Source: a virus. From it: DNA of 43,908 nt. The notes beneath the pieces were generated by a model. That model made no database searches. It was not told where the DNA came from and worked only from the letters and a program-made list of their open reading frames with translations. Below, piece by piece: positions 128-35,730 of this stretch. Position 1 is the stretch's first letter, and each line of letters opens with the position of its first letter. The stretch lies in IMG/VR virus record IMGVR_UViG_3300044798_000207, positions 1-43,908 of that record; one strand, written 5' to 3'. Both the position numbers and the translations under genes were made by a program.

Positions 128-1892
128 GGAAGTTACAACCTGGCTTACTCGTATTAATCACGGGGAGAAGTTTAGAGACGCCGACAACCGAAAAGTAGCC
201 TGGACGAACATGAAGAAATATTATCGGAACCAGTTTGCCGGTGATATTATGTCTGTTCCTTTGATTTACTCCCACGGCCGCCAGATGATTCCGTTTCTCT
301 ACTTCAAGAATCCTGTCGTGGAATGCACCCCCCTACAACGAGGCTTCGGGCACAAAGCCAAAATCCTTGAAGCCGTGGACAACATGCTCATTCGCGAAAT
401 GCGCGTTAAGGAGCAACTCAAACTCATCATACAGGACGCTTATTTATATGATTACGGCATTCGCAAAGTTGGCTATGATTCCGAATTTGGCTATGATGCT
501 ACCGGGTCGTTGTGGAAAGAGTTATTCGACGAGCTGGGAATTGAACTCACCAAAGAAGAAGCGGAAGAGTACAACACATACATTATCAGTGAGTTCCCAT
601 TTTTCCTTCGGGTTCCTCCCAAGCGATTTATTGTTGATCCTGATGTCGAAGGACCAACTTTAGACACAGCGCGTTGGGTCATTGAAGAATTCTACAGGCC
701 GCTGGAAGACGTTTTGGATGACGATAGGTATCATTTTCCTAAGAACCTTACTGCAACTCACATGATTAACAAGGATTCTTCCGGGAATACCGTAATAAGC
801 CCTAATAAAGAAGGACAGGTTGGTCTTGACATTGCCAAGAAGTCTGACATTGAACGAGTGAAAATGTGGGAGATTTGGGATAAGAAAAACCGAGAGGTTA
901 TGATTCTTGCTGATGGGCACTATGGTTTCGGTCGGCGCGTAGAAGACGTTTGGAATTTGCAGAATTTCTTTCCTTATGATCGCCTTTGCTTCAATCCTAT
1001 GTCGGATGAACATTATTCTGTCTCCGATGCCATGTATGTTGAGAAGCAACAAATCGAATACAACGATACCGTAAGTCAGGAAATGACTCATCGACGGCAC
1101 TCAAACAGAAAGATTCTGGCGCGAGAAGGCGCTTTTAGTGCTGAGCAGAAGAAGAATCTGCTATCAGGCAAAGCCGATGTTTTGGTCGAGACTCAGGTTC
1201 CTGTAGCCGAGATTACCCACCTAACCCCAAGCATGAGCCGTGACATCTACCAGGCCCGTGGTGACATTCGTACTGACATGATGGAAACCCTGGCTATGGG
1301 GCGCAATCAGATGTCTCAAGAGATGGGAAAGCGCAAGACTGCTTCTGAGGCTATGATTATTAACCAGTACACCGAGCTCCGCAGTGACGAGCGCCGGGAC
1401 ATTGTGGCGGACTTCATCGAACGGGCCATTCAGGATGTAAACACGCTGGTGTTCAAATTCTGGGACGTTCCCGACGTTATTGAGCTTGTTGGACAGGAAG
1501 GTGAGGCGTGGGCAGAGTGGACGGGAGCAGATTTGGAAGGCAGATACGCCGTACAGATCGTTCCGAACAGTGTTATGCCCCACACCAAAGAGCAATACAA
1601 GCAAAAAGTGGAGCATCTGTACAGCATTGTAACTGGAAATCCGTTCGTTAATTTGAAGGAAATGACACGATTACTTTTTGATGCTTACGAGGAATTCGAC
1701 ACAGAGAAACTTATTTTGAAGCAACAGGGAGAAGCGCCGAGCATGGCAGACTTCCGGCCTGGCCAGGCGAAGATGCAGGATGATGCTAAACCTCAACCCG
1801 AAGGTCAAATTAATCTTCAGGGGTCCCCTGAAGGAGCGATGGCCCAGGGGCAGAGGGAAATAGGCGGAGAACAAAAAGGAGGAAAGAAGTAA
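81..1892 (+). CDS. Portal protein (podovirus-type head-tail connector)
   Basis: 603 residues, the size of large podovirus portals. The portal forms the dodecameric ring at the capsid vertex through which DNA is packaged and ejected. Support comes from the acidic/aromatic N-terminal half, a long helical segment (about residues 330-480), a charged Q/G/P-rich tail, and position directly before scaffold and capsid genes. ATG at 81 overlaps the ATP-grasp stop by 17 bases, showing the late operon continues across the circle junction. No catalytic motif is expected. The call rests on size, composition and synteny. Confidence 0.85.
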   Translation: MAVIINDGKVGKEEKKEVTTWLTRINHGEKFRDADNRKVAWTNMKKYYRNQFAGDIMSVPLIYSHGRQMIPFLYFKNPVVECTPLQRGFGHKAKILEAVDNMLIREMRVKEQLKLIIQDAYLYDYGIRKVGYDSEFGYDATGSLWKELFDELGIELTKEEAEEYNTYIISEFPFFLRVPPKRFIVDPDVEGPTLDTARWVIEEFYRPLEDVLDDDRYHFPKNLTATHMINKDSSGNTVISPNKEGQVGLDIAKKSDIERVKMWEIWDKKNREVMILADGHYGFGRRVEDVWNLQNFFPYDRLCFNPMSDEHYSVSDAMYVEKQQIEYNDTVSQEMTHRRHSNRKILAREGAFSAEQKKNLLSGKADVLVETQVPVAEITHLTPSMSRDIYQARGDIRTDMMETLAMGRNQMSQEMGKRKTASEAMIINQYTELRSDERRDIVADFIERAIQDVNTLVFKFWDVPDVIELVGQEGEAWAEWTGADLEGRYAVQIVPNSVMPHTKEQYKQKVEHLYSIVTGNPFVNLKEMTRLLFDAYEEFDTEKLILKQQGEAPSMADFRPGQAKMQDDAKPQPEGQINLQGSPEGAMAQGQREIGGEQKGGKK

Positions 1893-3001: not shown

Positions 3002-3754
3002 ATGCCAGTAAGTGAATTAATTGCACAAGCTGCGGAAAAGGCTGCAAAAGACCTCAACCTCACTGAGGAAGAGGAAGTTGCCGAACAGCCCGGTGACGAA
3101 GAAGAAGCGTCTACGGAAGAGACAACCGAAGAGGAAATTGTTGAGGCGGAAGAAGGGGAAGAAAAACTTCCCTCCAAGAAACCCACCAAAACAGTTCCTA
3201 TTGAGCGCTTTAATGAAGTTTATAGCAAGATGAAGCAAATGGAGCGCTATGTACAGTTCATGGCGACTCAGCAACCAAAAGAACAACCTGTCGCAGAAAA
3301 ACCGGACCCGATTCCCGATCTGGACGAGCTTACAAACAAGGAACTTTATGCTTACATGGTAAAGACCCTTGGCAAAGAGATGAGAGGTGCGCTTAAAGAA
3401 GCAGTAAATCCTCTTGCTCAATTCGTTGATTCCTCCAAACAGGAACGGGCTGACAGGGACGTTGCTAGTGTTGCTGCTACTCACTCCGACTACTTCGACT
3501 ACGCCGAACCGATGATGGCGATTTCAAATCGCAATCCTGGTTTGACCGCAGAAGAAGTTTACTTTCTTGCTAAGGGCGACAAAGCCTCAGTAACCAAAAG
3601 TGTTGTCAAACGCCAGAAGGAAAAGATGCTGGCCAAGAAAAAGGCCAACGTCGAAAAGCGTTCGTCTCCCGAAGGCAAAATTTCTGAAAAAGCTGAATTC
3701 AAGACCGTCCGTGAGGCTGGAATAGCCTCAGCCAAGAAATTGGGCTTACTCTAA
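3002..3754 (+). CDS. Capsid scaffold protein
   Basis: 250 residues. The N-terminal 60 residues are extremely acidic (runs of E/D), followed by a helical, probably coiled segment (about 70-150) and a strongly basic C-terminus (RQKEKMLAKKK and on). An acidic start and basic end, highly helical, directly before the major capsid gene is the usual scaffold pattern; the basic end normally contacts the capsid protein during procapsid assembly. Start ATG 3002 follows AGAAAGGATA. No protease motif is seen. Confidence 0.8.
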   Translation: MPVSELIAQAAEKAAKDLNLTEEEEVAEQPGDEEEASTEETTEEEIVEAEEGEEKLPSKKPTKTVPIERFNEVYSKMKQMERYVQFMATQQPKEQPVAEKPDPIPDLDELTNKELYAYMVKTLGKEMRGALKEAVNPLAQFVDSSKQERADRDVASVAATHSDYFDYAEPMMAISNRNPGLTAEEVYFLAKGDKASVTKSVVKRQKEKMLAKKKANVEKRSSPEGKISEKAEFKTVREAGIASAKKLGLL

Positions 3755-3797
3755 TCTGCCTCAAGGAGTGGTCTTAGAAAATTGAAAGGAAAAACTA

Positions 3798-4772
3798 ATG
3801 CCAACTCCTACTTTAACCAGTGCAGAATATACACTGGATTCCCTGTACACAACTACCTGGCAGTCTGTTAAAAAGCAGGTTACGGACCAGATATTCAATG
3901 CCACGCCCTTTTTCTACGAGATGTACAAAGGTGAAAACATCGAGCGTGAAGACGGCGGGCGGTATATCGAAGAGCCGTTAATGTACGGGAAAAACGCGAC
4001 AATCGCGTGGATCGACAAAGGCGGAACCATCAGTATTGCCGATACCGATCCTCTGACCACAAGCACGTGGAACTGGCGCAACCTGGCCGGAACCGTTGTG
4101 CGGATGTGGGCTGACGATATGGCAAACTCTGGTATCCACAAGAAAATCGACTTAATGAATGCTAAGATCGAAAATCTGCGGCTTTCATTAATCGACCAGT
4201 TGGAGATTAATCTGTTCACCGCGCAGGCCGGTTCTGCGATGTCGGGGATTCCTGATATTATCCAGGCCGCTCTTCCTGCCGCTCAGTCTTTATCTCCCGG
4301 TGGACTCTCCAAAAGCACCTATCCTTGGTGGAGAAATCAGTATTTTGTCTCCACAGGTTCGTTCGCCGCTTTCGGCAAGTCCGACATGCGAACCATGTAT
4401 AACAACTGCTCCATTGGAAACGATCACCCGAATCTGATCCTAACCGAACAGACCGTGTTCGAATTCTACGAAGCAGAGGCTGAGGACATCCAGAGAATTA
4501 ATGATTCCTCCGCTGCTAACTTGGGCTTCCAGACGTTTCGGTACAAGGGCGCGAATATGTATTACAGCCCTCAGTGCCCGACTGGGTATATATACTTCTT
4601 GAACCTGAAGTATCTAAAGCTCAAAATTGACTCCAAAGCCGATTTCGATATGACCGAATGGAAGGTCATTCCTAATCAACTGGACCGTGTTGCGCAGGTA
4701 GTGTCGAGAATGGAACTTGTGTCCCGTAACAACAGGATGCAGGGGCTCATTGGGGGCATTACGGTTGCGTAA
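3798..4772 (+). CDS. Major capsid protein
   Basis: 324 residues, placed right after the scaffold. It looks like the HK97-fold capsid family of Gram-negative podophages: an N-terminal arm, a helix-rich segment LINxxxIDQLEINLF, a conserved-looking segment HPNLILTEQTVFEFYEAEAE (about 214-233, family usual 'PDLILTTQxxYDxYE') and a C-terminal beta segment ending IGGITVA. No N-terminal protease cleavage site is obvious. It is followed by a 227-nt non-coding stretch with several hairpins, suggesting a separately stabilised abundant message. Confidence 0.85.
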   Translation: MPTPTLTSAEYTLDSLYTTTWQSVKKQVTDQIFNATPFFYEMYKGENIEREDGGRYIEEPLMYGKNATIAWIDKGGTISIADTDPLTTSTWNWRNLAGTVVRMWADDMANSGIHKKIDLMNAKIENLRLSLIDQLEINLFTAQAGSAMSGIPDIIQAALPAAQSLSPGGLSKSTYPWWRNQYFVSTGSFAAFGKSDMRTMYNNCSIGNDHPNLILTEQTVFEFYEAEAEDIQRINDSSAANLGFQTFRYKGANMYYSPQCPTGYIYFLNLKYLKLKIDSKADFDMTEWKVIPNQLDRVAQVVSRMELVSRNNRMQGLIGGITVA

Positions 4773-4999: not shown

Positions 5000-5824
5000 A
5001 TGGGTGCTACAAAAGTAACATATTTTGAAGGAAAAGGACGGCAGATTCCTACGGGATTTCAGCCTGGTCCTGGTACTGTCGCTGTTGGACAGGGTATTTA
5101 CGATCAGAGCACAACGAAGAAACACGCTCTCGGTGAGCGGCTTCAGATTGGCAATCGCGTATTTTATTATGCAAAAGCCGGTGCTGCCCTGGTTGCTGGA
5201 ATGGTGAATGAGTCAGCGGTTTATGGTGGATCTTCTGGTACAATCCAGACGAACCTGACAGTCCCGACTGTTACAGACGGCTCAAACGCGGCTGGTCAGA
5301 ACAAAGTGACATTGACGATGGCGACGGATGCCGCAGCCCAGGACGCATTTGCTGATGGTTATCTCAGTGGGTATGATGGCGGCGCAGCTTATGGCGCTGG
5401 ACAGACCTACAGAATCAAAAGCAACGAAGCGGCTACTGCGGGCGGAGCTTTGAAGTTGACTCTGTACGACGACCTGGTAGTGTTGTTTACGGCTGGAACT
5501 GCTCACTGCAACGTAATTGCCAATGAGTTCAACGGCGTTAAGACCCTTCAGACAACCTCTGTTGGTTTCGTTGTTGGAGTGTCTTTGATCGTTGTGGCCT
5601 CTGGCTCTTACGGTTGGCTTCAGACCTACGGACCTTGCTGCTGCTTGGTCAATGGGACTGTTACCAACGAGACGGCCATAATTTTTGGTGTCACTGCAAC
5701 CGGATCGTTCGATGCTCAAGTCGCTGGTGGGTCTTCGCTGGCCACACCGCAGCTTGGATTTTTGATGCACGCTGCCATTGCCTCTACGAAATATGGCATG
5801 GTTTTTCTACAGATCATGACATAA
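5000..5824 (+). CDS. Abundant-type virion protein, duplicate copy 1
   Basis: 274 residues, rich in Ala/Gly/Thr/Val, predicted all-beta. It is clearly paralogous to the next gene: near-identical opening (MGATKV-YFEGKGRQIPTGF), shared blocks HALGERLQIGNRVFYY, TIQTNLTVPTVTDGSNAAGQ and LKLTLYDDLVV. It sits next to the capsid gene and has a strong AAAGGAGG site, pointing to a capsid decoration or head protein. The two copies diverge most after residue about 175. The exact role is inference. Confidence 0.7.
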   Translation: MGATKVTYFEGKGRQIPTGFQPGPGTVAVGQGIYDQSTTKKHALGERLQIGNRVFYYAKAGAALVAGMVNESAVYGGSSGTIQTNLTVPTVTDGSNAAGQNKVTLTMATDAAAQDAFADGYLSGYDGGAAYGAGQTYRIKSNEAATAGGALKLTLYDDLVVLFTAGTAHCNVIANEFNGVKTLQTTSVGFVVGVSLIVVASGSYGWLQTYGPCCCLVNGTVTNETAIIFGVTATGSFDAQVAGGSSLATPQLGFLMHAAIASTKYGMVFLQIMT

Positions 5825-5838
5825 AGGAGGAATGAAAA

Positions 5839-6669
5839 ATGGGTGCAACAAAAGTAAGTTATTTTGAAGGTAAGGGTCGCCAGATTCCGACTGGATTCAA
5901 TCCCGGTCCTGGCGCAAGGGTCGTTAGTCAGGGCATCTACGAGCAAAGTGCTACGAAGAAACATGCCCTTGGCGAACGCCTGCAAATTGGAAACAGAGTG
6001 TTTTACTATGCTCTTGCAGGTGCTGTTGCCCTAATTGCCGGACAGTTGTGCGAATCTGCTGCTTATGGTGGATCAAGTGCAACCATTCAGACCAACCTAA
6101 CTGTTCCTACGGTTACAGATGGGTCTAATGCTGCGGGGCAGAATAAGGTCACGGTGACGATGGCAACCGACGCAGCAACCCTCGATCAGTTCGCGGATGG
6201 TTACTTGAGTGTGTATGATGGAACCGCCGCTCAGGGTGTTGGTCAGACCTATCGGATCAAGAGCAATGAAGTAGCGACGGCTGCGGGTGCGCTGAAATTA
6301 ACCTTATATGACGATTTGGTGGTTGTACTCACGGCGGCAGGAGCTTATTGCAACGTGATTACCAATGAGTTTTACAAGGTTCTAATCTCCGCTGCGAACC
6401 CTGTGGGCTTCCCCATTGGGGTTCCTCTAATCGCCGTAACTGCCACTCAGTATGCTTGGCTGCAAACCTTCGGGCCTTGCGCTTGCTTGCTTGGTGGGAC
6501 TACTCCCATTAACGGAGAAGCGTTGACTCGGAGTACGGCTACGGCTGGAGCACTGCAAGTCCAGGTTGCAGGTAGTGGCTCACTTACCAATCCCGAAGTG
6601 GGATTTCTGATGCACCTTGCCTGTGCTGATACTGCATACGGCATGGTGAATTTGAAGATCATGGTGTAA
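5839..6669 (+). CDS. Abundant-type virion protein, duplicate copy 2
   Basis: 276 residues, about two-thirds identical by eye to the gene just upstream, in the same frame order and only 14 bases away with a AAAGGAGGAATG site. Differences are concentrated in the C-terminal 100 residues, including different Cys positions (CACL versus CCCL). A tandem duplication with divergence is the simplest explanation. The copies may form a mixed capsomer decoration or occupy different virion sites. A strong hairpin follows (6679..6701). Confidence 0.7.
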   Translation: MGATKVSYFEGKGRQIPTGFNPGPGARVVSQGIYEQSATKKHALGERLQIGNRVFYYALAGAVALIAGQLCESAAYGGSSATIQTNLTVPTVTDGSNAAGQNKVTVTMATDAATLDQFADGYLSVYDGTAAQGVGQTYRIKSNEVATAAGALKLTLYDDLVVVLTAAGAYCNVITNEFYKVLISAANPVGFPIGVPLIAVTATQYAWLQTFGPCACLLGGTTPINGEALTRSTATAGALQVQVAGSGSLTNPEVGFLMHLACADTAYGMVNLKIMV

Positions 6670-21525: not shown

Positions 21526-22253
21526 TTGTATCTCCTTCCATTCGCCCAGAATTTATTCCTGATAATATAAACCTGTGTCTCCGAAAACTCCTTCGTCTTA
21601 TCGTCCACGTAAGCAAAGTTAAATCCATTAACCCAACGATTGGGGCGGTTCTTCAAGTAACTCGGATTCATTGTACAAAGACACCCACAGGAAGCGCCAG
21701 TATAGAACTGTGATATGTCTACGGGAGAAATGTCCGTGTACCTCTGAACGTCGTGCGTATGTCCATACAAAACCGTTTTGTGCACAGCATGTACAGTCTG
21801 AAAAGCATGATACTTTGTTGTGTAAAGCCCGTGCAAGTAGCAAAGGTGCTCGTTTACGTGGTAGGCTTGATTCACTGGAATGATTTGGATATCTTTAGGC
21901 AAGTTCTCTTCAAGTTCTATGAACCCCCGCAAGTTGGGGTCCGCGTTGGCTGCTTTTCTTAACCAATCTTCGTGATTCCCAACCAAGTATACAATCTTTG
22001 CCTTCGGTGCAGCTTTATGACAAGGCTGCAAGACCGTACGTGTAAGAGCCACGTAATTTTCAGCAAGCGTCCCGCCATCCAAAGCGCGGCTTTGGTCAGT
22101 GACAAAAGCACAAACCGCCGTCCAATCATGAACATCACCTCCAAGTATAATCTCCGTTGGCTTGAAGTCCTGAATAAACTCAAACACAGGACCCAGCGGA
22201 ATGTTGAATGGTACGTGGCAATCGAAAAGGGCCACTATTTTCCTATCACTCAC
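21522..22253 (-). CDS. Calcineurin-like metallophosphoesterase
   Basis: 243 residues from GTG 22253; AAGGAGAACCTAAA gives this start, and upstream in-frame residues belong to the HNH gene. All family motifs are present: DCHVPF (D-x-H), GGDVHDW (GDxxD-like), GNHED and YGHTHD. It binds two metals and hydrolyses phosphomono- or diesters; substrates range from nucleotides to RNA 2',3'-cyclic ends. It follows the HNH gene by a GTGA overlap and shares the operon with an RNA-ligase-like gene, so RNA end repair is one possible role. Confidence 0.8.
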   Translation of the reverse strand: MSDRKIVALFDCHVPFNIPLGPVFEFIQDFKPTEIILGGDVHDWTAVCAFVTDQSRALDGGTLAENYVALTRTVLQPCHKAAPKAKIVYLVGNHEDWLRKAANADPNLRGFIELEENLPKDIQIIPVNQAYHVNEHLCYLHGLYTTKYHAFQTVHAVHKTVLYGHTHDVQRYTDISPVDISQFYTGASCGCLCTMNPSYLKNRPNRWVNGFNFAYVDDKTKEFSETQVYIIRNKFWANGRRYK

Positions 22254-22636
22254 TTTAGGTTCTCCTTTTGATGTGGACAGTAACCAACGTGCCCGAAAGC
22301 AAAGTTGCAGTTCATGCACAACGTTCGATAGCCCGAAGGAAAATTATTCTTTACAAGCCATCTATAAAACGATGTGCCCCTTCCAGCACTTTTAAGTTCC
22401 TGTCGGTGTTTTTTCCCGCCCCCATTTATATGATCTATAGAAAGAAACTCTCTTTTGTTTTCCTTGCAACAAGCACATTCCAGCCCATAATGATTAAATA
22501 CTGCGTCCCGTTGCCTTTGGTGAAATCTATTGGCGCTTGCGCGATTTTCAGCGCGGTGCGTCGCCGCGTATTTTTTATGTTTTGCTTGATATTCTGCTTT
22601 GTGTGCTTGGTAATGTTTGTTGCTATACACACTCAT
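22250..22636 (-). CDS. HNH endonuclease (EndoVII-like)
   Basis: 128 residues. The N-terminal 45 residues are basic and helical (YQAHKAEYQAKHKKYAATHR). The nuclease core has CACC (54-57), LSIDHINGGG with D68-H69, and CMNCN (107-111), the zinc-bound beta-beta-alpha HNH layout of phage free-standing homing nucleases. It lies between the DUF3987 ATPase and the phosphoesterase, overlapping both by 4 bases, as expected of an element well fitted into the operon. Confidence 0.8.
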   Translation of the reverse strand: MSVYSNKHYQAHKAEYQAKHKKYAATHRAENRASANRFHQRQRDAVFNHYGLECACCKENKREFLSIDHINGGGKKHRQELKSAGRGTSFYRWLVKNNFPSGYRTLCMNCNFAFGHVGYCPHQKENLK

Positions 22637-23811
22637 TCTCTCTTCGTTCCTTTCAATCCATAATAAGTTCCAGTTCCCTTAACTTCCTTTCCAATCCTCC
22701 CCTCCACTTCCAAATTATACAAAACCTCCGTCAACTCTTGCGCTCGCATCCTTCCTCCATTCAAGTGCTGCAACTCCGACCTCGACAACCATCTTTCCCT
22801 CCGCGCGAGTTGGTCTACAATCCTTCCTCCATGCACCGCCATTGGAATTTGCCCAAGCAGTCTGTAAGCCTTCACCAAATTTATTTCGATTCGATTAACA
22901 ATTTCCAAACTCATTTCCAGATGGGGTGTCTCCAAAATCAAATCATCCGATTCGGACATAGCCAATAACAAAGTTACCTTCAACAAATTGGTATGCTTCC
23001 TTCCATGCCATCCATCCAACTCAGGGTCCTCCGGGCGGGGATTCCTTTTCTCGTACCACTCCTTGTACCAAATCCGCGCTTCTGGGGACAATCTATAAGC
23101 TTTAGGTTCGTTTGGATTGCAGGAAGCTGCAATTGTTTTCAAGTCTGCAATGAGATTATTTCTGAGAATCGCAGGAGCCTTTGGGTACGCAATCTTTCCT
23201 TTTGGTGTGTCCTGATAAATAATCCAAAGTCTGGGTGCAAATCCTGTTCCGCTTGCCGAAGCGGGAATCAAAGCAGCAAAGTCCGTTGGCGTAGTTCCCA
23301 AAAGCGTTACTATATAAGGGTTGGTTAAAGTAACCGGGCCTTTGCTTGCAGTCCTCTTGGTATAAACTCCCCGCCGCGCAGCATAGAATCTGGTTAAAAA
23401 AGGCACAAGTCCAGAATAGGCTTCATGCTTCGACAGGGCCACGCTCAATTCATCAGCAAAGACAAAGACAGTGGAGTTCCCATAAATGTCTACATTCTCT
23501 TCCCCTTGTAACCACAATCCTGCTTCCGTTATCTTCTCTGACATGGAATCAATACCAGCCAGTCCGGCCTCTTCAATAATTCCCTGCGCTATTTCCGTAG
23601 CTCCACCCTTCCGGCATTCGGCCGTTTTGGCCAGCAAAAGGGTATAGAGGTTCGGAAAGACCTTGTAGTGTTCAAATTCCAAGTATCGAGCGCCGTGTGA
23701 TGCTAATGACAAGCAGGTTAATCCACAAGCAAAATGGAACTCTTCTGGAGCCTCCTGTATCTGAGTATAATCCATATATGTTGACATAAAGCTTGGAGAA
23801 CATAGTCTCAC
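22633..23811 (-). CDS. DUF3987-type ATPase (primase/helicase-associated)
   Basis: 392 residues from GTG 23811 (AGGAGGACTGA ahead). The segment LLLAKTAECRKGGATEIA (about 59-76) matches a degenerate Walker A of DUF3987 proteins (usual '..GsRKSpa'), and TVFVFADELSVAL (about 114-126) fits Walker B with an acidic pair; KGPVTLTNPYIVTLLGTTP is also family-like. The C-terminus looks like a winged helix (RERWLSRSELQHL to the end). DUF3987 proteins act near phage replication genes, probably as helicase or loader. No separate DnaB or primase was recognised, so this may be the replicative motor. Confidence 0.65.
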   Translation of the reverse strand: MRLCSPSFMSTYMDYTQIQEAPEEFHFACGLTCLSLASHGARYLEFEHYKVFPNLYTLLLAKTAECRKGGATEIAQGIIEEAGLAGIDSMSEKITEAGLWLQGEENVDIYGNSTVFVFADELSVALSKHEAYSGLVPFLTRFYAARRGVYTKRTASKGPVTLTNPYIVTLLGTTPTDFAALIPASASGTGFAPRLWIIYQDTPKGKIAYPKAPAILRNNLIADLKTIAASCNPNEPKAYRLSPEARIWYKEWYEKRNPRPEDPELDGWHGRKHTNLLKVTLLLAMSESDDLILETPHLEMSLEIVNRIEINLVKAYRLLGQIPMAVHGGRIVDQLARRERWLSRSELQHLNGGRMRAQELTEVLYNLEVEGRIGKEVKGTGTYYGLKGTKRE

Positions 23812-23821
23812 TCAGTCCTCC

Positions 23822-24487
23822 TTAACCACGAAGAACACCTTCTTCGAATTGCTTTATAGCCGCGCGCAGGGCGGCTTGGGGCGGTTTGCTTTTTGGTTCA
23901 TCATCCTTCTCGATGGTCTTTTTGAACAGGCAATTTCCTGCGGTGTGGTAGATTACGACCCCCTCCGGCTTCATAAACCCCGGCGCTGCATAACTCCCAC
24001 TTCCCTCCAAAGCGCTGAGGGCCAAACTAACCACGTCCCACCCGAAGACTCCCACGGCGATCACAGGAACTACGTGGCAGCAAGCAGGCGGTGGTTTGAA
24101 TTCGGGTTTGGGCAATTTGCACCCGTCTCTTTGCCATGCGCCAATCTTAAACCTCTCAAACATTCCTTCATCCCAGCGGGTTACATTGAAAAGGGAAAAC
24201 CGCTTCTCCTTCAACCCATATCCTCGATTAATCCCCTGTCCCCACCATTCGCCAAAATGTAATCCGGGGCCGAGTTTAAAAAGTTCGGTTTCGTTTTCAT
24301 AGGCCCACTTAGCAAAGCCATGATTATCATTACTTGGTGTAATCCATCGAGAGCGAGAACCTACATTGAATGCAGGATAATCGAGCAAGCTAATGCGAAT
24401 ACAACCATTCGTCCCATCTATCTTCTCCGTCAGGATACAATCCCTGGAGAAGCGCGGAATTTTTGGAAACTCAATGAATTCGTTCAT
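23822..24487 (-). CDS. RNA-ligase-like nucleotidyltransferase
   Basis: 221 residues from ATG 24487 (ATGA overlap with the polymerase stop). Motif I is LTEKIDGTNG with the probable adenylated lysine K22; a motif III-like LFNV, motif IV EGVVIY and motif V LFKKT follow in order, matching the RNA_ligase (T4 Rnl2-type) domain. It would seal RNA ends using ATP; DNA nick sealing cannot be excluded but no BRCT or OB extension is seen. Placed between polymerase and DUF3987 ATPase. Confidence 0.7.
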   Translation of the reverse strand: MNEFIEFPKIPRFSRDCILTEKIDGTNGCIRISLLDYPAFNVGSRSRWITPSNDNHGFAKWAYENETELFKLGPGLHFGEWWGQGINRGYGLKEKRFSLFNVTRWDEGMFERFKIGAWQRDGCKLPKPEFKPPPACCHVVPVIAVGVFGWDVVSLALSALEGSGSYAAPGFMKPEGVVIYHTAGNCLFKKTIEKDDEPKSKPPQAALRAAIKQFEEGVLRG

Positions 24488-25671
24488 TTCAACTCCCCCC
24501 AATTCTCTCCCGTCTTGAGTTTAAGTGGTATGACCAGCACTTTGTTGTGAACAACCATCGGTGCGCAAATAGCAAGCTCCGCTGTAACTTTGAACACGTC
24601 CACATATTCCGGTAAGCATTGAGCCAAAAATCCATCGTGTGTTTGAATAAGCAATTCAGGCATAGGATCAAACAGAATTGTACTTGTTTCAAGCATTCCC
24701 ACAATTTCCATTTCCTTACATCCAAACAACCTCACCAGCCCCTGATTCAAATAATCCGCACACGTCGATTGAGGCACAAACGCCAGCATCTTCCTGACCA
24801 GATCCTCGTTAGGGCGACCCAGGAACAAGCGTCTTCTGCCGAGAGGAGTAACCAGTACCCGTTCTCCCGTAGGCCAATTTACAACCTTACCCAACGCATC
24901 AAGTTGAGGGAGAACCTTCGCCCGGATCTCCCGGTGAAAAGCCGGTATTCTTGGAAATCTTTTAAAGTATTGATTCCGAACTTCTTTAAAGATGGCCACA
25001 GAGCATTCGGCAACTTCGGCTCCATGCTTAACTCCGAGGCCATAATGAGTGCCATGAGTAATTCGCTTGCTTTTTCCATACGGCTTATCCGGTGAATTGT
25101 CTTCTTCAATTTCTTCTTCCTTCAGCCCATAAAGCTGACTGGCAATGTATTTATGAATGTTAGCATTGGGATTCTGACAAACCTTCATCAACTCCACTAC
25201 TTCAGCGTTCCAGTAGAATATTCTCGCTTCAGCCTGGCGTAAATCCCCTTCCACCAGGACCATACCCGGATCTGGAATAACGATTTTCCTAAACGCTTCG
25301 GGAAGGTTTTGCTGGTCCGTCCCAGTGTCATCATCAGTCTTGCGAGAAGAAAGCCGCCCAGTATCGGTAACAGTTTGTGAATACTTCGTGTGCATCCTTC
25401 CATCAGGGTCCAAAAGGCTTGGTCCATATTCTGCTCTTTCCTTGTCCGCTTTTCTGTAGTCTTCCAGGGCCTGAATGACCCCGGATTTATCCCGCTTCTT
25501 CAGGGCCTTAATTGCACTCTTACCAGTTGTAATCTTCTTCTTTTTGGTCTTCTTGTCAATGGTAAACTGCTCCGGCATCCCCAAGGTTTCATACAGTAAT
25601 GCAGCAACCTGCTTCGGGGAGTTAGGGTTGACTTCGTTTGAAGGAGATTTTACTTTCTTCGTTCGGGGCAT
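24484..25671 (-). CDS. DNA polymerase, family A: palm/fingers half of a split enzyme
   Basis: 395 residues from ATG 25671, which overlaps the stop of the small gene upstream (TAATG) with GGGAGGAG as site. It begins in the thumb (NPNSPKQVAALLYETLG, about 15-31) and then has TGRLSS (104-109), QNLP (121-124), motif A GDLRQAEAR (142-150; D143, E148), motif B from K202 to YG (210-211) and motif C QTHDG (343-347). Compared with E. coli Pol I, the F762 position is H206 and the motif C Glu (E883) is G347. The exonuclease half is a separate gene (25936..27249). Together they make the phage replicase. Confidence 0.88.
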   Translation of the reverse strand: MPRTKKVKSPSNEVNPNSPKQVAALLYETLGMPEQFTIDKKTKKKKITTGKSAIKALKKRDKSGVIQALEDYRKADKERAEYGPSLLDPDGRMHTKYSQTVTDTGRLSSRKTDDDTGTDQQNLPEAFRKIVIPDPGMVLVEGDLRQAEARIFYWNAEVVELMKVCQNPNANIHKYIASQLYGLKEEEIEEDNSPDKPYGKSKRITHGTHYGLGVKHGAEVAECSVAIFKEVRNQYFKRFPRIPAFHREIRAKVLPQLDALGKVVNWPTGERVLVTPLGRRRLFLGRPNEDLVRKMLAFVPQSTCADYLNQGLVRLFGCKEMEIVGMLETSTILFDPMPELLIQTHDGFLAQCLPEYVDVFKVTAELAICAPMVVHNKVLVIPLKLKTGENWGELK

Positions 25672-25949
25672 TACTCCTCCCATTCGAAAGTAACTTTAAG
25701 TGAGGTATTGGGGGGAATTCCACGCGGAATACAAATGGATTCGGTTGCTGCAAGAAAGCCTTGATTTGAAATTAAATTTATGGTTTTTGTTTTCTTCTCC
25801 CTTACAACCTCCCAATCATCCGCGCATAATTCTTCTTCGGTCCTTGCATAGAGCACGCGCGTTAAGGAGGTCAGCTTTACAAACATGTAACGAGCAGACT
25901 TAATTCTTTGCCCAAACTTTGCTTTCTTGTATGCTTCAATTATGTTCAT
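25671..25949 (-). CDS. DUF2829/Tad2-like small protein between polymerase halves
   Basis: 92 residues. The opening IIEAYKKAKFGQRIKSARY and the segment RTEEELCADDWEVV match the two most recognisable blocks of DUF2829 proteins ('..EAL.AlK.GkrV.R..' and '..lLAeDWev'), but the central part is shorter than usual and a 40-residue extension follows. Some DUF2829 members (Tad2) bind the signal nucleotide of Thoeris defence, so an anti-defence role is possible, not shown. The start overlaps the exonuclease gene by 14 bases. The C-terminus FEWEE encodes the ribosome site of the polymerase gene. Confidence 0.5.
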   Translation of the reverse strand: MNIIEAYKKAKFGQRIKSARYMFVKLTSLTRVLYARTEEELCADDWEVVREKKTKTINLISNQGFLAATESICIPRGIPPNTSLKVTFEWEE

Positions 25950-27249
25950 TTAATTCCTCCTTCTTCGTTAATAGATTCCACTTCTCCTTCGTCATCGTAT
26001 ACTTCTTCGCAACCTCCGCCCTAACCTCCTCCAAAGCTTCCTTGTTAATATTTACTCCTCGATTTCCCATCCCAAACAGGATATGAAACAAAGGCATTTG
26101 GTACTCACGAAAGAACGCCATTAAATTCAACTCCTCCAACTCCAACGCCAACTTCTGCCAAATTTCGGCTGTAACTGAAGCATGAAGAGCATTGTACCTT
26201 CCTCTCTTGTCATCCTCATTCCAACCTTTGGGGTGAAGAATCCCATCAAGGTTACAATAAATCGAAGCCAAGTAACCAAGATCATGGGGAAGCTCTGGAT
26301 ACAGGACGTGGTGGGCAAGCATGGTATCGGCGTACAACCGCCCGACTGGCATACCAATCTTTACCAGCTTGCCCATATCGTACGTTCCGTTTTGGGCAAC
26401 TAATAAATATGAATCCCGTAGTAATTGCCTGACATTTGTTTTAATTTCTTCTTTGCTTGGCCCCTGGTCCAGCGCAATGCTGATACTTGGACCTTCATCA
26501 AGAGCAAAAGCAATACGATCAATCCAAGATCCTTTATTTTCAATATCAAACGCAATGCAACGATGCCGTTGTAACGCCAACCCTTGAAGAAACTCCAAAG
26601 CATAATCATCCTCCCAAATTAACTGGCGTTCCGGGATTTCAAGTCCGCGTGTTTCGCTTTCCCTTTTGGCCTTCTTAATGTCAAGGATAAGCGTAATGCG
26701 CCCAGACCCGTACGTGTATTTAACACCACCTTCCCCTTCGCGTTCCTTTTTAGAAGGTTTGTCTCCCAATCTGAGTATGTAAGCGGGATGGAACGAGCAA
26801 AGTACCTTAACAGGTTCGGAAACCATTGTGAACGGATAAACGATACCTCTATGCTCCGTGATCCCCAACTTTCCAGCAAGAGCCTGCAAGGCAATGTTAC
26901 CCAATCCGAGAACGACATTAGGTTTCCAGAACTTAACCAAATCTTGTATTCCCTCAAAGCACTCCTCCCAGGTTATCCCTGTTTCACTCAGCCTCTCCGC
27001 AATATCCTCCGGGGGCCTTACGGGACTCACATTCGTCACAAAACAATTCTCCCTCTTCACTCCAGCCACAGGTAACACGGCATTTAGAAACCTCCCACTC
27101 TTCCCCACGAACGGCATCCGGGCCTTCTCCTCCTCCTGACCCGGAGCCTCTCCCACTATCCACAACTTTGACTTTGGATTTCCCGACCCCAAGCAGCTTA
27201 TTAGCTTGAGATTCGAGCATTTTTTTATTAGCGTATCGTACTTCTGCAT
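25936..27249 (-). CDS. UDG-like domain fused to 3'-5' exonuclease: N-terminal half of split SPO1-type DNA polymerase
   Basis: 437 residues from ATG 27249 (GAGAGGAGTTCG). Residues 1-165 are a family-4-type uracil-DNA glycosylase fold: GEAPGQEE (33-40), PFVGKSG (46-52), FHPAY (153-157). The four Fe-S cysteines of that family are not conserved (C11 present, others lost). Residues about 228-375 are a DnaQ/Pol I proofreading domain: Exo I FDIE (D235, E237), Exo II NGTYD (287-291), Exo III YNALH (352-356), where His replaces the metal-binding Asp. The tail (380-410) is the first thumb helix. This is the domain order of phage SPO1 polymerase, with the palm half encoded separately at 24484..25671. 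Confidence 0.82.
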   Translation of the reverse strand: MQKYDTLIKKCSNLKLISCLGSGNPKSKLWIVGEAPGQEEEKARMPFVGKSGRFLNAVLPVAGVKRENCFVTNVSPVRPPEDIAERLSETGITWEECFEGIQDLVKFWKPNVVLGLGNIALQALAGKLGITEHRGIVYPFTMVSEPVKVLCSFHPAYILRLGDKPSKKEREGEGGVKYTYGSGRITLILDIKKAKRESETRGLEIPERQLIWEDDYALEFLQGLALQRHRCIAFDIENKGSWIDRIAFALDEGPSISIALDQGPSKEEIKTNVRQLLRDSYLLVAQNGTYDMGKLVKIGMPVGRLYADTMLAHHVLYPELPHDLGYLASIYCNLDGILHPKGWNEDDKRGRYNALHASVTAEIWQKLALELEELNLMAFFREYQMPLFHILFGMGNRGVNINKEALEEVRAEVAKKYTMTKEKWNLLTKKEELNEHN

Positions 27250-29047: not shown

Positions 29048-29308
29048 TTATTCCTCCCACTCGAAGGTTATTTTTGTGAATTCTCTTGGTTTACCGGTTA
29101 TATAATCATGAAACAATTCTGCTGTTAGACGCGCCTCCTTTGAACTGCCCCCAATGTCCTTCCCAGCAAAAGAAGCTCCAGTGACAACAACTGTCGTTTT
29201 CTTATTCCGAAGTTCTGGAATCAACTCTTCCAAAGCAACGCGGGCTTCTGGATATACAGCCAATATTTGTCTTGCTGTTGGAATATAAATTTCACGACAA
29301 TAGTTCAT
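29048..29308 (-). CDS. Hypothetical protein ending TFEWEE (86 aa)
   Basis: 86 residues, ATG 29308 in ATGA overlap with the upstream stop. The last residues ITFEWEE match the end of the unrelated gene 25671..25949 (VTFEWEE). In both cases the codons for these residues contain GGGAGGA, so the protein end doubles as a possible ribosome-binding purine tract. Otherwise unrecognised. Confidence 0.5.
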   Translation of the reverse strand: MNYCREIYIPTARQILAVYPEARVALEELIPELRNKKTTVVVTGASFAGKDIGGSSKEARLTAELFHDYITGKPREFTKITFEWEE

Positions 29309-35572: not shown

Positions 35573-35647
35573 GGGCGGTTGGTGTAATTGGGAGCATAGT
35601 AGCCCTGCACGCTTCTGGCAAGAGTTCGAATCTCTTACTGTCCACCA
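35573..35647 (+). tRNA. tRNA-Ala (TGC), CCA encoded
   Basis: Acceptor GGGCGGT/ACTGTCC with the alanine identity pair G3-U70, A73 and encoded CCA; D arm with A14, A15, G18 G19, A21; anticodon stem GTAGC/GCTTC (one mismatch); loop CCTGCAC, anticodon TGC; T arm AAGAG-TTCGAAT-CTCTT. Position 33 is C instead of the near-universal U, which may lower decoding efficiency. First element of the rightward block. Confidence 0.75.
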
Positions 35648-35654
35648 AAAGTTT

Positions 35655-35730
35655 AGCGGAGTAGCATCAATGGTAGATGTCCAGGTTCATACCCTGGGGG
35701 TTGGTGGTTCGATTCCACTCTCCGCAACCA
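35655..35730 (+). tRNA. tRNA-Met (CAT), CCA encoded
   Basis: Seven bases after tRNA-Ala. Acceptor AGCGGAG/CTCCGCA with a mismatch at 1-72 (A-A), A73 and CCA; D stem GCATC/GATGT; anticodon arm CCAGG-TTCATAC-CCTGG, anticodon CAT; T arm GGTGG-TTCGATT-CCACT. An open 1-72 pair is a bacterial initiator feature, but the three G-C pairs of initiator anticodon stems are absent. Could also be a lysidine-type Ile tRNA. Confidence 0.8.

Follow-up and report, generated by a model that had tools for sequence, protein, structure and literature searches.

A phage UDG-exonuclease-PolA replicase divided into two genes at the thumb, with a small gene between them

The DNA considered here, called the window throughout, is a viral stretch of 43,908 nucleotides (IMG/VR record IMGVR_UViG_3300044798_000207, positions 1 to 43,908). 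A check of its open reading frames shows that the UDG-exonuclease-PolA replicase is encoded by two genes on the minus strand (window 24484-27249), named here the N half and the C half, and that a small gene, the mid gene, lies between them (Table 1). The domain order is that of the SPO1-type UDG-exonuclease-PolA enzymes, with the gene divided rather than single, and the phrog_17 DNA polymerase profile spans the N half and then the C half, in this order. All three ORFs are preceded by a Shine-Dalgarno-like string: the ATG of the N half by GGAGAGGAG, the start of the mid gene by AAGGAGG, and the C half, which has an ATG of its own, by GGGAGGAG. The mid gene overlaps the C half by 1 nt, in a TAATG at position 25671 (-). 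An earlier reading of the locus, made from the letters alone (the sequence-only reading), had described a polymerase in two genes with good starts and a 92-codon gene between them, linked by 14-base and TAATG overlaps; these features are all present, and the domains of the two halves match those it had assigned.

Table 1. Features of the divided polymerase locus and its downstream neighbour (window positions).
Feature	Position	Strand	Evidence
N half, 437 aa: UDG domain, 3'-5' exonuclease, thumb helix H	25936..27249	-	profiles, structure
Type-4 UDG-like domain, residues 21-166	26752..27189	-	PF03167 E=2.6e-22; PDB 1ui0 E=6.6e-25
3'-5' exonuclease domain, ExoI D235/E237 and ExoII D291 present	26113..26616	-	PF01612 E=4.9e-7; custom HMM
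ExoIII catalytic position, codon CAT = His356 (YNALH)	26182..26184	-	relatives Asp; sister GAT
Thumb helix H, residues 403-436, last N-half element	25942..26043	-	AF2 model, alignment
N-half stop / mid-gene start overlap, 14 nt, ATGAACATAATTGA	25936..25949	-	sequence
Intervening (mid) gene, 92 codons, weakly Tad2-like	25671..25949	-	homologue, PF11195 score, GC
C half, 395 aa: 14-aa leader rich in lysine, thumb from helix H1 on, palm and fingers	24484..25671	-	PF00476 E=5.5e-37; AF2 model; Foldseek
Palm motif A Asp143 (GDLRQAEAR)	25243..25245	-	invariant column
Palm motif C Asp346 (THDG)	24634..24636	-	invariant column
RNA ligase gene, directly downstream, ATGA overlap with C half	23822..24487	-	PF09414 E=3.1e-8, phrog_548 E=1.1e-23

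The two halves share a reading frame, yet four in-frame stops separate them; one indel or one stop codon would not account for such a break, and a simple frameshift is ruled out. The junction contains about 250 nt of extra, low-GC DNA (GC content is 40.5% in the mid gene and 46% in both halves), and the only repeats found there were short pairs at chance level. No residue of the fused relatives is missing from the window polymerase, which has 19 extra ones; the extra residues at the junction termini number about 8 and 14. An assembly or sequencing artefact, i.e. a chimera or an indel, might be suspected, as the window is a single metagenomic record, the only one that carries this break, and the polymerase of its sister phage (described below) is fused. 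However, such an error would need to have produced a 92-codon gene that has a full-length homologue elsewhere, and also to have supplied Shine-Dalgarno sequences and neat overlaps at both ends, in a place where the flanking halves abut without loss. We consider an artefact very unlikely; the four stops, the complete set of polymerase residues and the homologue of the insert speak for a genuine gene arrangement and not a sequencing frameshift, as had been proposed.

The position of the break was determined by alignment with E. coli Pol I, T7 gp5 and fused relatives. It lies between thumb helices H and H1, close to residue 568 of E. coli Pol I. The N half stops after helix H, and 14 residues of the C half precede helix H1 (NPNSPKQV). 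Alignment and the AF2 model of helix H both agree with the earlier placement of the split in the thumb, with the first thumb helix in the N half. Modelled separately with AF2, each half gives a confident structure, with pLDDT values of 93.5 for the N half and 91.0 for the C half. According to the alignment, the H-H1 loop at the break is the loop that holds the thioredoxin-binding insertion of T7 polymerase, which we take to be about residues 262-333 of gp5. The two enzymes are alike in that both have extra sequence at this position, but the T7 insertion is covalent within one chain and binds thioredoxin, whereas the window polymerase is broken there.

The C half matches the DNA_pol_A profile PF00476 over residues 12-393 (E=5.5e-37, 128 bits against a cut-off of 34.3). 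The characteristic family A residues are present (motif A D143, O-helix K202, motif C H345-D346), and every invariant column of the family is kept; the C half deviates at two nearly invariant columns, N119 and N209. Foldseek searches with the C-half model found KlenTaq and Bst Pol I (TMq 0.67-0.75, E down to 1.7e-20), and the fold is the right-hand fold, judging from these matches and from the AF2 model. The polymerase domain has not changed significantly faster in the window lineage than in the sister lineage (29 vs 26 changes, p=0.69). Taken together, the C half looks functional as a polymerase, and the enzyme is presumably active.

The 3'-5' exonuclease gives a different picture. Foldseek searches with the N-half model found type-4 UDGs (1l9g, 1ui0) and Klenow-type enzymes. 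As compared with the DEDDy pattern (D, E, D, D plus the motif III Tyr), D235, E237, D291 and Y352 are present and the fourth Asp is His356. The window has the only His among 75 resolved sequences, the 74 others all having Asp at the ExoIII position; at one additional locus the base is ambiguous. In DEDD exonucleases the loss of a catalytic Asp should cripple proofreading, and since the ExoIII Asp is replaced by His, proofreading by the window replicase is probably weak or absent. The exonuclease domain has accumulated 11 changes in the window lineage as opposed to 4 in the sister lineage (p=0.07). The locus had been called a working split replicase; the polymerase half does look functional, but the exonuclease is probably inactive, so "working" most likely refers to the polymerase only.

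These observations raise the question of whether the polymerase as a whole is decaying, i.e. whether an insertion broke the gene, the exonuclease is degrading and the phage depends on the host replicase. The Asp to His change at ExoIII, the faster change in the exonuclease domain and the long branch of the window polymerase in the tree would fit such a scenario. On the other hand, the two reading frames run uninterrupted for 395 and 437 codons, their ribosome-binding sites are good and their overlaps tight, the polymerase has kept every invariant residue, the rate of the polymerase domain is not raised, and the window proteins that were scanned include no other recognisable DNA polymerase. Decay is thus an unlikely explanation in our opinion.

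The closest relative of the window is the IMG/VR phage IMGVR_UViG_3300018057_000020 (43,276 bp), the sister phage, whose major head protein is 81%, portal 64% and TerL 56-58% identical to those of the window. The two phages are similar in size, both encode a UDG-exonuclease-PolA replicase, and their structural genes are 36-81% identical. In contrast to the window, the sister has, in the equivalent position, a single polymerase gene of 804 aa, with an Asp at ExoIII and no mid gene. Because the nearest relative has one continuous frame, the comparison of the two sequences indicates that the thumb split is derived in the window lineage. The sequence-only reading had held that a relative with a continuous polymerase frame would count against it; such a relative exists, but what it points to is a derived split, not an artefact. 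It had also suggested looking for the same split in related genomes. The comparison covered about 150 distinct IMG/VR contigs and about a dozen named phages and gave no other genome broken in the thumb; breaks occur at other sites instead. One locus, L085, was considered as a second thumb split and rejected; it has a deletion and a frame change, lacks a usable start and is likely an artefact. In the window, the split polymerase is followed by RNA ligase, DUF3987/primase-like and HNH-like genes (22250-24487 (-)), and no RNA ligase or HNH counterpart was found in the sister phage in the interval from the polymerase gene to the DUF3987 gene.

The 92-aa mid protein has a full-length homologue in an unrelated 90-kb contig, L126 (31% identity, E=2e-11). 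The homologue ends in TKITIEWEE, and the tail common to the two proteins is of a T-[IV]-T-[FI]-EWEE-like type. Against the Tad2-like profile PF11195 the mid protein scores 14.3-14.8 bits, below the cut-off of 25 and over the C-terminal part of the model only. No tblastn match was found in named phages, and none in 17 related records (the sister phage and 16 others). The coding end of the mid gene, GGGAGGAGTAATG, also supplies the ribosome-binding site and the overlapping start of the C half. On this sequence evidence the foreign insert is most plausibly a small, mobile phage gene, and its protein is most likely a passenger. Another small low-GC gene of the window, at 29048-29308 (-), has a TFEWEE C-terminal tail and a DNA tail, TCGARTGGGAGGARTAA, in common with the mid gene.

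Homing endonucleases are known to split T4-type genes (PMC2988022), and an HNH-like gene (22250-22636) lies about 2 kb downstream, so one might suppose that the mid gene is the remnant of a homing endonuclease gene or that the HNH gene was acting at this site. Yet the insert gave no endonuclease match, and its homologue belongs to a different small phage protein family, which makes a homing event a rather improbable origin of the break. Phage polymerase genes often carry introns, and the distant loci L001 and L002 look intron-interrupted in the palm; the intervening sequence might accordingly be removed as a group I intron or a split intein, restoring one chain. This we hold to be extremely unlikely. 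There was no Rfam match to a group I intron in 25400-26200 even at E<=1, the C half has a Shine-Dalgarno sequence and an ATG of its own, the insert is occupied by a gene in another frame, and neither terminus has an extra protein segment of intein length, those present being too short for a split intein. One could also speculate about an obligate multi-chain replicase whose third subunit is the 92-aa protein, translated from the same coupled message. Bound to the broken thumb tip like thioredoxin to the T7 thumb, it would make up in processivity for an exonuclease that no longer proofreads, but we give this idea little credence.

Splits of UDG-PolA replicases were also surveyed elsewhere. The survey searches were pattern-based and used HMMs built from nine sequences; two wide alignments (A1, A2) proved too divergent for scanning, and direct scans with the halves alone retrieved little or nothing. 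Split PolA recurs in the Kuura clade, ctLwi270, MEP401 and VS-ABTNL-3, and PolA splits arose at least five times, independently and at different sites. On the tree, a quick one with long branches, the split label needs 8 changes as opposed to 28 expected for shuffled labels, so the split appears clustered, as one inherited clade plus isolated events. Two distant loci, L001 and L002, have inserts of about 1 kb near the O-helix and downstream pieces without a good start codon, and look intron-like.

The inherited clade consists of Caulobacter phage Kuura and some 30 IMG/VR relatives. Here the break is inside the exonuclease, between ExoII and ExoIII (L005, L018, L020, L022, L024-L026, L033, L034, L039, L043, L045-L051, L053, L058, L064, L070, L077, L081, L086-L090, L096, L097). 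The N piece carries ExoI and ExoII, whereas the ExoIII YxxxD belongs to the C piece in 31/31 cases, at a near-constant distance from the thumb in all 31. The junction varies from no intervening gene up to several small genes, and the set of these genes also varies. In L039 the UDG-exonuclease and polymerase halves are on opposite strands, at 703-1722 (-) and 3011-4534 (+), so they are truly separate genes there. The retention of a composite exonuclease site in all 31 across this divergence would be hard to explain if the halves did not assemble, and we regard this putative two-chain site as the strongest indirect sign that the halves of a split PolA come together.

It is instructive to compare the window with other split replicases. 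Firstly, in the OM43 phages MEP401/402, and in most of the metagenomic phages related to them, PolA is split and a small ORF separates the pieces (PMC10580990). MEP401/MEP402 (OP830906), phages of about 43 kb, resemble the window in having a family A polymerase in two ORFs with a small unknown ORF between them, but MEP401 is broken just ahead of palm motif A, at about E. coli 699/700, rather than in the thumb, and its pieces gave no recognisable UDG domain, unlike the window N half. Secondly, Kuura and its relatives are similar to the window in that UDG-exonuclease-PolA is encoded by two genes, which variable small genes separate; the difference is that their break is within the exonuclease and inherited in a clade, while that of the window is in the thumb and found in a single record. 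The main text of the Kuura paper reports only a DNA polymerase and does not mention the split (PMC9959647). Thirdly, podovirus ctLwi270 (MW202554), whose TerL is the closest to that of the window among annotated phages (31%), also has two polymerase genes with a short ORF between them, but is broken at the exonuclease/polymerase boundary. The intervening ORF of ctLwi270 (L007:2902-3126) looks like an NrdR-type zinc ribbon, and HMO-2011 polymerases have a zinc-binding partial DnaJ domain at the same exonuclease/polymerase boundary. Vibrio phage VS-ABTNL-3 (gp29/gp28/gp27) likewise has UDG-exonuclease-PolA in two genes with one gene between them, but its break is near E. coli 684/685 as opposed to 568.

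A split phage replicase is also found in Aeromonas phage 25, where the halves of the T4-type PolB, gp43A and gp43B, co-purify and the polymerase is active (PMC2988022); that enzyme belongs to family B and is associated with a homing endonuclease, whereas the window polymerase belongs to family A. The precedents of MEP401/402 and gp43A/43B, together with the recurrence of splits in relatives, make the two-chain replicase proposed in the sequence-only reading plausible. Although split replicases are known, the thumb site, the probable loss of the exonuclease and the composite-site clade appear to be undescribed in the literature searched.

Our preferred explanation, which we consider probable, is that a mobile small gene was inserted into a permissive thumb loop and gave rise to a self-assembling two-chain polymerase whose exonuclease is probably weak or absent. 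In a recent ancestor the replicase would have been one gene, and the small phage gene would have entered the flexible thumb-tip loop between helices H and H1. It would have brought a start of its own, and its end, GGGAGGAGTAATG, would double as ribosome-binding site and overlapping start for the C half. The halves would then be made from one message by coupled translation and would assemble non-covalently, through helix H, into a polymerase. The break is probably tolerated, since other family A enzymes have insertions in this loop. The polymerase site is intact and entirely in the C half; the exonuclease site is entirely in the N half and retains three of its four carboxylates.

The window would be a compact system for testing whether a PolA still works when severed at the tip of the thumb. 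It adds a new break site with a rationale of loop tolerance and an exonuclease that looks inactivated. The survey reaches further: with its repeated breaks and its composite-site clade, it makes self-assembling split replicases directly testable and may also explain polymerase pieces that are annotated as hypothetical proteins, as in Kuura.

Two other features of the window may be mentioned. The genes at 5000-5824 and 5839-6669 (+) are tandem paralogues that both match one sister gene with 55-58% identity, and tRNA-Ala and tRNA-Met genes lie side by side at 35573-35730 (+).
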